DNA of 57,244 nucleotides, from the NCBI GenBank assembly GCA_009702965.1, contig WLHB01000004.1:1-57244 (forward strand), read 5' to 3'. Positions 45,231 to 46,900 of the stretch are shown here, one piece after another; positions within the stretch are counted from its first letter, which is position 1, and the number at the start of each line of letters is the position of its first letter. The notes below the pieces were generated by a model. That model ran no database searches, was not told the DNA's origin, and saw nothing but the letters and a program-made list of their open reading frames with translations. The position numbers and the translations under genes were made by a program. Source of the stretch: Actinomycetota bacterium (lineage in GTDB: Bacteria > Actinomycetota > Actinomycetes > Nanopelagicales > Nanopelagicaceae).

Positions 45231-46655
45231 TTAGCCCTTCTTCCCATCATCATGACGCGAGGCCGCATCTGCTGATTTTGTACCGGATCGCTTGCGCAGG
45301 ACCCAACCTAATACATTTCTCTGCTTTGCCCTAGCAACTCCAATTGCTCCGGGTGGCACATCTTCAGTAATCACTGAGCCAGCGGCTGTATATGCGCCAT
45401 CTCCGATCGTGATCGGGGCTACCAACATGGAATCGCTCCCGATTCGCACATGATCTCCAACCACGGTGTGGTGTTTTTCAACGCCATCGTAATTCACGAA
45501 AATTGTCGCAGCACCGATATTGCTACCCTCACCGATTGTGGCATCGCCAACATATGAAAGGTGCGGAACCTTTGAACCGTCACCAACAACAGCATTCTTC
45601 ATCTCAACAAATGCTCCGGCCTTACTTGATGTGCCTAGTTGGGTACCTGGTCTTAAATATGTAAATGGTCCAACGCTTGCATTGGCACCGATCACAGCAC
45701 CTGTGCAGTGAGATTCAATCACCTGCGCACCAGAGGCAACGGTGCAATTAAGCAATGTGCTGCGAGGCCCGATAACGGCGCCGCTTGCAACCTTTGTTGA
45801 CCCAGCAATCCATGTACCTGGCAATAACGTGACATCACTTTCAACTGTGGCAGTTGAATCAACCCAGGTTGAGATTGGATCAACGATAGTCACGCCAGCC
45901 TTCATTAAATTATCGTTAATCAGATCGCGCAAAAGAGCAGCGCTTTCAGCAAGCTGGGCACGGTCATTAACTCCGAGAATTTCAATAAAGTCTTCGATGA
46001 GAACCGCTGCGATTGATCCACCGTCATTACGGAGGATTTCAAGAACATCGGTGAGATAGAGCTCGCCTTGTGAATTATCGTTCTTTAATTTTCCAATCGC
46101 TGCCGCAAGTTTTACACCGTCGAATGCGTAGACCCCAGAATTAACTTCGTAGATTGCCTTCTCTTCATCGCTGGCATCGCGCTCTTCAACGATACGAAGT
46201 AATGAACCATCTTCGCTGCGAACAATTCGGCCATACCCTGTTGGATCTGGGTGCTCAGCAGTCATGACAGATGCTGCAAACTTTCCTTTATGGTGAACTT
46301 CTAAAAGTGCTTCAAGTGAGGCACCTGTAAGCATCGGGGTATCCCCTGCAAGAACCAAGACAGTTCCCTGTGAACTTGTGCCTGCGAGCGCCAATTGAGT
46401 TGCATGACCGGTACCACCGCGGTGTTCTTGAAAGACCGTTGTGGCGTGAGGTGCAATTTGGGCAACATGTGCTTCAACAAGTTCACGACCTGCGCCGACG
46501 ACAATGCAAAGATTTTTACCCTTGAGCCCACTTACTGCATGGAGAACATGGCCAAGAAGTGTGAGACCAGAAATTTCATGAAGAACCTTGGGAGTTGTGG
46601 ATTTCATCCGCGTGCCTTCTCCAGCGGCGAGAACAACCACTGTTTCAAGGCTCAT
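45231..46655 (-). CDS. glmU: Bifunctional GlmU: glucosamine-1-P acetyltransferase and UDP-GlcNAc pyrophosphorylase
   Basis: 474 residues. Makes UDP-GlcNAc for the cell wall. N-terminal nucleotidyltransferase (1-230) with VVLAAGEGTRMKSTTPKVLH and ILVLAGDTPML-like GTVLVLAGDTPMLTG; C-terminal left-handed beta-helix (250-450) with hexapeptide repeats, GPFTYLRPGTQLG, HLSYVGDATIGEGSNIGAAT and the catalytic His region. The tail is basic. ATG 46655 is six bases after TACACT (leaderless); the tRNA-Gln repeat array ends two bases upstream of that -10. Confidence 0.97.
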   Translation of the reverse strand: MSLETVVVLAAGEGTRMKSTTPKVLHEISGLTLLGHVLHAVSGLKGKNLCIVVGAGRELVEAHVAQIAPHATTVFQEHRGGTGHATQLALAGTSSQGTVLVLAGDTPMLTGASLEALLEVHHKGKFAASVMTAEHPDPTGYGRIVRSEDGSLLRIVEERDASDEEKAIYEVNSGVYAFDGVKLAAAIGKLKNDNSQGELYLTDVLEILRNDGGSIAAVLIEDFIEILGVNDRAQLAESAALLRDLINDNLMKAGVTIVDPISTWVDSTATVESDVTLLPGTWIAGSTKVASGAVIGPRSTLLNCTVASGAQVIESHCTGAVIGANASVGPFTYLRPGTQLGTSSKAGAFVEMKNAVVGDGSKVPHLSYVGDATIGEGSNIGAATIFVNYDGVEKHHTVVGDHVRIGSDSMLVAPITIGDGAYTAAGSVITEDVPPGAIGVARAKQRNVLGWVLRKRSGTKSADAASRHDDGKKG

Positions 46656-46661
46656 GTATTA

Positions 46662-46667
46662 AGTGTA
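46662..46667 (-). promoter_or_regulatory. Leaderless -10 element of glmU
   Basis: TACACT on the minus strand, six bases (TAATAC) before ATG 46655. The region where a -35 would lie is the third (tRNA-distal) repeat unit. Confidence 0.55.
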
Positions 46668-46669
46668 AC

Positions 46670-46771
46670 TTGCTCCGCCTGCTTATTCGGCGGGCAATAT
46701 AAATTGCTCCGCCTGCTTATTCGGCGGGCAATATAAATTGCTCCGCCTGCTTATTCGGCGGGCAATATAAA
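46670..46771. repeat. Three perfect 34-bp tandem repeats derived from the tRNA-Gln 3' end
   Basis: Units 46670-46703, 46704-46737 and 46738-46771 are identical. Plus-strand unit: TTGCTCCGCC, TGCTTATTC, GGCGGGCAA, TATAAA. TTGCTCCGCC continues as the first ten bases (46772-46781) of the region holding the tRNA 3' end. On the transcribed (minus) strand each unit is a hairpin TTGC-CCGCC / GGCGG-a-GCAA, and units 1 and 2 downstream of the tRNA are followed by TTTATATT, so they resemble stacked terminators. Confidence 0.95.
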
Positions 46772-46774
46772 TTG

Positions 46775-46846
46775 CTCCGCCACCAGGTATCGATCCTGGA
46801 CCCTGGGCTTCAAAGGCCCATGTGCTAGCCACTACACAATGGCGGA
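46775..46846 (-). tRNA. tRNA-Gln(UUG)
   Basis: 72 nt. Acceptor TCCGCCA/TGGCGGA, D-arm GTGTAGTGGCTAGCAC, anticodon arm TGGGC-CTTTGAA-GCCCA (anticodon TTG), variable GGGTC region, T-arm CCAGG-ATCGATA-CCTGG, discriminator G, then CAA; CCA is not encoded. GAGAAT (46858-46853) lies six bases upstream of the 5' end, so the predicted transcript starts at the mature 5' end. Confidence 0.93.
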
Positions 46847-46852
46847 ACCCGT

Positions 46853-46858
46853 ATTCTC
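46853..46858 (-). promoter_or_regulatory. -10 element of tRNA-Gln
   Basis: GAGAAT on the minus strand followed by ACGGGT and then the first base of the tRNA. Same hexamer as at ppc and the 12384 palindrome. Confidence 0.5.
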
Positions 46859-46900
46859 CCTCATTACTTGGGGTGCTGGCGACCAGAATCCGCGCAATCG

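Follow-up and report, generated by a model that had tools for sequence, protein, structure and literature searches.

Tandem copies of the tRNA-Gln 3' end, variable in number, between tRNA-Gln(TTG) and glmU in Planktophila-like actinobacteria

The tRNA-Gln–glmU spacer and its repeat units

The window, that is, the whole stretch of 57,244 nucleotides analysed here, carries on its minus strand, in this order, what we take to be tatD, ksgA and ispE, then tRNA-Gln(TTG), a repeat array, and the presumptive genes glmU, prs and rplY. All features given below lie on this strand. The tRNA gene, position C74 included, extends over 46774–46846 (ARAGORN; Rfam RF00005 at 46775–46846), and the reading frame of 474 amino acids at 45231–46655, defined by the list of open reading frames and by relatives, is presumably glmU, a name given from its sequence. 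The closest relative of the locus among named ones is a Candidatus Planktophila MAG (L034) with a GlmU 93% identical, and judged by its sequence the window's genome is that of a Planktophila-like acI actinobacterium.

Three identical units of 34 nt run on from the tRNA gene. The first-pass annotation had placed them at 46670–46703, 46704–46737 and 46738–46771, and they are indeed perfect copies, their number being the count of a draft assembly. The natural unit boundary on the minus strand lies just after the discriminator base; repeat analysis and relatives thus give unit 1, which adjoins the tRNA, at 46741–46774, unit 2 at 46707–46740 and unit 3 at 46673–46706, and Tandem Repeats Finder called 46666–46781 with a period of 34 and 3.4 copies. 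Read from the base after the discriminator, a unit is CAATTTATATTG-CCCGCC-GAATAAGCA-GGCGGAG. Its last seven bases equal the acceptor 3' strand of the tRNA plus discriminator (GGCGGAG, 46775–46781, termed D), in agreement with the annotation's view that the units derive from the tRNA 3' end. These direct copies (D') lie at 46741–46747, 46707–46713 and 46673–46679, and each unit also holds an inverted copy of the tRNA end minus one base (I, TTGCCCGCC), at 46757–46765, 46723–46731 and 46689–46697. The ten bases GGCGGAGCAA, previously described as the shared end, are common to the tRNA gene and the units, but only GGCGGAG belongs to the folded tRNA: the Rfam match stops at 46775, the C corresponds to position 74 and AA to the trailer.

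A -10-like TACACT of glmU (46662–46667) was found where the annotation had put it, two bases past the last GCAA of the array. It ends 6 nt before the glmU ATG, and from this spacing the glmU transcript is probably leaderless, starting at or next to the ATG. The tRNA together with the array reaches a folding energy that beats all 200 shuffles (z -5.4), and the array is not a product of chance. Within its own assembly, which is 76.3% complete, a 20-nt junction pattern allowing up to 3 mismatches matched the three array sites only (reversed control 0), which argues against a genome-wide repeat family.

Variation in relatives and recurrence at tRNA-Ala

The full tRNA pattern, which required an intact first D, was present in 177 of 193 glmU loci from the genus and near genera and yielded 97 distinct spacers; the 16 loci dropped for want of it were contig ends, outgroups and L100, which has a different anticodon arm. 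As the genome sets overlap, stretches identical from the tRNA to a GlmU motif were counted once, so that some of the 97 spacers differ only in the first glmU codons. No unit was found in 58 spacers, one in 25, two in 11, three in two and four in one (58/25/10/3/1 without length filter), and the length variation that the annotation had proposed to look for is therefore real. The distance to the GlmU motif was 33–231 nt in 96 of the 97 (in L183 the motif was not found), and 82 of the 97 had a -10-like motif by a loose pattern without chance estimate. Since 58 spacers are unit-free, the array is dispensable; Planktophila versatilis (L039) is one species naturally without units.

Several relatives differ by whole units within a common flank: L174, L161 and L163 have 0, 1 and 4, L175/L082 and L170 have 0 and 2, L117 and L027 have 0 and 1, and L080 and L089 have 1 and 2, whereas L019 and L010 (0 and 1) also show two base differences in the flank. 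Only the pairs L080/L089 and L019/L010 were comparable on the glmU tree. We infer from these differences that slippage or unequal exchange takes place. Within a genome the arrays can be homogeneous, with four of four units identical in L163 and three of three in the window, and unit families are specific to lineages: 34 nt (the window type), 33 nt with CCATTTATGG or CAATGTATTG, 30 nt with CGAYAAGCGAAGCC and 40 nt with CGAAAGCAAAGCC. When mapped onto a tree of 88 loci built from glmU alone, with weak support at some nodes, unit numbers and types are intermingled, a pattern that agrees with units having been gained, lost and exchanged repeatedly.

Deviating forms were seen as well. The close relatives L029, L030 and L033 have different unit types at one site, and their sequences suggest recombination exchange or loss from a mixed array. 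L045 and L085 have half units, in which the tRNA-Gln end is copied in inverted form but D' is missing; in L085 GGAGCCAATTGGCTCC forms a perfect palindrome together with the tRNA end. Five direct copies of the tRNA-Gln end without I occur in L341/L100, from another genus, and four in L342, from a genus distinct from the latter. L337 and L344 show plain short tandem duplications of the last 13–16 nt of tRNA-Gln, C74 included, possibly the starting state of such arrays.

In the order as a whole, a D' follows tRNA-Gln in 55 of 296 genomes (25 of 108 when only good-quality genomes are counted) and in seven of 17 genera, with no match in the reversed control. Matches from other genera amount to 16 genomes, and glmU came next in all 10 inspected.

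The same plan recurs at a second tRNA. In the single-contig genome G003, tRNA-Ala(TGC) is followed by a version in its own sequence, TGGA-ACCAG, loop, CTGGTCTCCA. A pattern for D and D' at this tRNA matched in 6 of 135 genomes of the genus, including G056, whose GlmU is closest to that of the window's genome. In the order it matched in 8 of 296 genomes, with one match in the reversed control, and I could be recognised by eye in each of these 8. The inverted copy is perfect in G151 from a second genus (GGAGACC) and has one mismatch in G232 from a third. An independent D-I-D' matched to tRNA-Ala argues that complementarity, rather than sequence, is kept. Among 233 tRNAs of seven genomes, exact copies of the tRNA's 3' end of at least 7 nt within 100 nt were found at Gln(ttg) in five genomes, at Ala(tgc) in G003 and at Gln(ctg) in G122, with about one expected by chance (control 219/52678), and at no other tRNA of this set, which rules out a general feature of tRNAs. 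The Gln(ctg) copy showed no inverted copy by eye. In the same genome (L255), tRNA-Phe has a different direct repeat, GGTTTGTGTCTGGCCA, in two copies within 70 nt downstream.

Constraint on the units and predicted folding

Stems and loops of the units change at very different rates. In the 34-nt family (8 taxa, glmU tree), changes per site were 0 in ATTG, 0.25 in CAAT and 1.9–2.0 in both loops. This family was selected by length and CCC[GA]CC, and D' in all families by a pattern fixing most of its bases, so the conservation of these segments is partly circular. In the 30-nt family (8 taxa), stems and D' had 0–0.12 changes per site (0.12 in GCGAAGCC) and the loops 1.3–1.4 (1.4 in loop 2). ATTG is also kept in loci with a single unit. 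As stems change much less than loops, a small RNA structure is likelier than junk.

Of 37 first units, 22 contain a complement to a triplet of the trailer, against 3.6 expected, as CAA:TTG in 18 and as CCA:TGG in four, and from the sequences this qualifies as a compensatory exchange; the triplet is uncomplemented in the remaining 15, including all 10 with CGA. The inverted D was the only target to which unit cores were significantly similar (26 of 46). Four other targets reached p<=0.05 in 1 of 46 each, which rules out the glmU promoter, the T-arm and their complements as sources of the cores. None of 39 first units holds a perfect 7-nt complement of D; near-perfect inverted copies occur in L030 (second unit) and L085 (half unit). 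In an alignment of D with I, with the structure slid by -1, 91.4% of 140 cells were paired. It comprised 28 of 48 distinct D-to-D' stretches and mostly left out 30-nt, 40-nt, other-genus and I-less ones. There were no double changes, because D is invariant.

The two pairing registers proposed at first sight exist in prediction, with the tRNA end at -16.4 kcal/mol and inside one unit at -14.0. Compared with shuffled cores, pairing with D had a mean z of -2.8 (p<0.05 in 35 of 49 pieces) and pairing with D' a mean z of -1.6 (23 of 49), four of the 49 pieces being fragments from over-splitting in L009 and L030. For the window array, predicted native acceptor pairing was 0.94–0.96 with a trailer of up to 16 nt and fell to 0.01 at 18 nt, when I is complete; once D' was present, the acceptor 5' strand was predicted to pair with it instead (0.83). 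With longer trailers the native value was 0.91 at 50 nt and 0.00 at 60, and the second D' reached 0.83 at 70. The pairing thus alternates as the trailer lengthens, which accords with the earlier idea of a ladder that includes the acceptor strand of the tRNA.

Across 37 first units, predicted native acceptor pairing before D' was 0.26 vs 0.70 with shuffled cores. With D' it was 0.18 vs 0.27, and the exchanged fold reached 0.64 vs 0.58. Invasion by I is therefore specific to real units and strand exchange is not. The expectation that D' would restore the native tRNA was contradicted by equilibrium folding, as the value with D' stayed below that of shuffled cores. In zero-unit spacers the mean native probability was 0.38, with 36 of 57 below 0.5 (L102, which has an N run, was excluded from the folding counts). 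These tRNAs presumably work, so the folding model is crude and equilibrium values are not to be taken literally. The outcome is decided by cotranscriptional folding and processing, not by equilibrium. Pairing of a 25-nt trailer to the tRNA end was significant (p<=0.05) for 27 of 39 spacers with units and for 16 of 57 without, and no such trailer pairing was seen at 124 other tRNAs (mean z 0.14; 7 of 124 at p<=0.05, near the chance level).

Possible explanations and known systems

The array might best be explained as a duplicated tRNA 3' end, variable by slippage, that is kept as a structured pre-tRNA trailer timing 3' maturation or separation from glmU, a reading to which we give somewhat less than even confidence. 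The array would then be a variable-number tandem duplication of the tRNA-Gln(TTG) 3' end, in which each unit adds an I and a fresh D', giving a transcript tRNA(5' strand 0 ... D)-I-D'-I-D'-I-D'. Copy number would shift by slippage or unequal exchange between D copies of 7–8 nt. Selection, presumably acting on the RNA and not on the DNA, would keep I and D' as a structured 3' trailer in which I pairs with the D of the tRNA or with D', and the trailer hairpin would compete for the acceptor strand until cut off. The most likely role would lie at the tRNA-to-mRNA boundary, in how and when the 3' end matures and parts from glmU, and regulation, including any effect on glmU, might follow from the structure. 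Arrays without I (L100/L341, L342) speak against a trailer of this kind.

A neutral minisatellite, in which slippage at a hairpin amplifies the tRNA end and repair templated by D keeps the copies alike without any function, is a real though lesser possibility. It would account for the copy number difference between the close relatives L080 and L089, the homogeneity of the arrays of L163 and the window, the more than half of spacers that are unit-free, and the simple direct duplications of the tRNA end, lacking I, in L337, L344 and L342. It sits badly with stems that are almost constant next to loops with about 2 changes per site, with ATTG kept even in single-unit loci, and with the missing perfect complement in 39 first units, which D-templated repair would tend to restore.

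A more specific form of function, a cis switch, is rather doubtful. In this model I would strip off the acceptor 3' strand and D' would replace it, giving two exchanged cloverleaves whose balance sets tRNA output where a tRNA adjoins a gene in acI bacteria. Equilibrium folding provides mixed evidence for such a switch.

The annotation had also proposed stacked terminators or an insulator for glmU, and both, as intrinsic terminators or as a bar to tRNA transcription entering glmU, now appear improbable. Tandem hairpins do stand between the tRNA and a downstream promoter, and the first two hairpins of the window are followed by TTTATATT (6 T of 8), but a T-rich tail follows no more than 5 of 57 D' copies. 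The terminator scan was empty in the array, although it admits loops of 8 nt at most and those of the array have 9. Other tRNAs of the same genome, e.g., tRNA-Arg(tct), show by eye an ordinary hairpin plus T. Relatives without units do without the array, and in many of them (e.g., L008, L011 and L081) the -10 directly follows the tRNA, which leaves little need for an insulator.

It is quite unlikely that the D' copies serve as extra 3' cleavage sites, GGCGGAG-C being the setting in which actinobacteria would cut after C74. Known tRNA 3' endonucleases require the T-arm/acceptor fold, which D' alone lacks. The first C after D' is retained in all units of the relatives listed, and position 74 is C in 239 of 242 tRNAs. 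According to passages of PMC3848588 and PMC4681348, P. acnes and S. coelicolor cleave between the two Cs of the CCA; these reports concern precursors of CCA-encoding tRNAs, and the authors of the P. acnes study suggest that the enzyme responsible might act on CCA-less tRNAs as well.

That the units are left over from integration at a tRNA attachment site, or form a tiny mobile unit targeting tRNA 3' ends, is highly improbable. The units sit exactly at the tRNA 3' end and repeat it, and unit types differ between the close relatives L029 and L030. Nevertheless, the common repeat is only 7–8 bp, spacers of 33–231 nt leave no space for an element and none lies within them, and the unit is not found elsewhere in its own assembly. 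A scan of viral contigs with the unit pattern gave 0 exact matches, and carriage by viruses was rejected on this result. An assembly artefact, conceivable since the window comes from a draft of 60 contigs, can practically be dismissed, as homologous units occupy the same site in independent assemblies, including the single-contig genomes G003, G004, G005, G011 and G131.

An observation of its own concerns start codons at tRNA ends. In seven acI-family genomes (e.g., L216, L280 and L211), an ATG or GTG that begins a frame of 60 codons or more stands exactly one base after the discriminator at 14 of 229 tRNAs, compared with a mean of 1.4 and a maximum of 5 at the other 59 offsets; the counts include homologous pairs, e.g., Leu(caa) in four genomes. 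In the spacers L087, L129, L130, L132, L137 and L139, the glmU frame can open with C-ATG right where tRNA-Gln ends, and its first codons contain CGCCACC, which complements GGTGGCG of the tRNA end. With start codons one base past the discriminator, the actinobacterial cut after C74 reported for CCA-encoding tRNAs would release leaderless mRNAs. The sequences suggest a possible bacterial form of tRNA punctuation, a term found only in a reference in the portion consulted of PMC4633059 on mycobacterial leaderless transcripts.

The abstract of PMC5301498 describes acI bacteria as the group of highest abundance in most freshwater lakes. Should the trailer prove functional, these bacteria would control tRNA 3' maturation, or its timing, through a structure made from the tRNA's own sequence. 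Even if neutral, the arrays form a natural series of hairpin-bearing repeats growing and shrinking at a tRNA gene. Cultured Planktophila, some species of which are naturally unit-free, make a role of the trailer testable.

In the titles and opening parts of abstracts of open-licence literature, no description of such arrays in Actinobacteria was found, and several known systems can be compared. With intrinsic terminators the array shares a G+C-rich hairpin, but not a T-rich tail kept in relatives. With integrative attachment sites it shares a direct repeat of the tRNA 3' end, of 7–8 bp only, but no integrase element lies between the repeats. Hairpin-promoted slippage and quasi-palindrome template switching are known mutational processes, and closely spaced direct and inverted copies that change in number resemble their products; the inverted copies, however, are imperfect in all 39 first units, and the stems are far steadier than the loops.

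Attenuators form mutually exclusive 1:2 and 2:3 hairpins, and D, I and D' are similar segments in that I may pair with either neighbour, both predicted registers beating shuffled cores. In contrast to attenuators, the first segment belongs to a functional tRNA, as its acceptor strand, and there is no terminator, and the array is known from sequence and predicted folds. The rtT repeats of the E. coli tyrT operon, an Rfam family of their own, are tandem repeats of about 178 bp at a tRNA-Tyr locus, directly after the tRNA gene, whose 3' end is copied in each of them. Rfam gave only tRNA matches in the window (gathering scores) and in 46600–46900 (E up to 1), with no match to rtT. The present array differs from rtT in its 34-nt units, its inverted copy, the tRNA-Gln, the other phylum and its recurrence at a second tRNA; common to both are tandem repeats after a tRNA that carry a copy of its 3' end.
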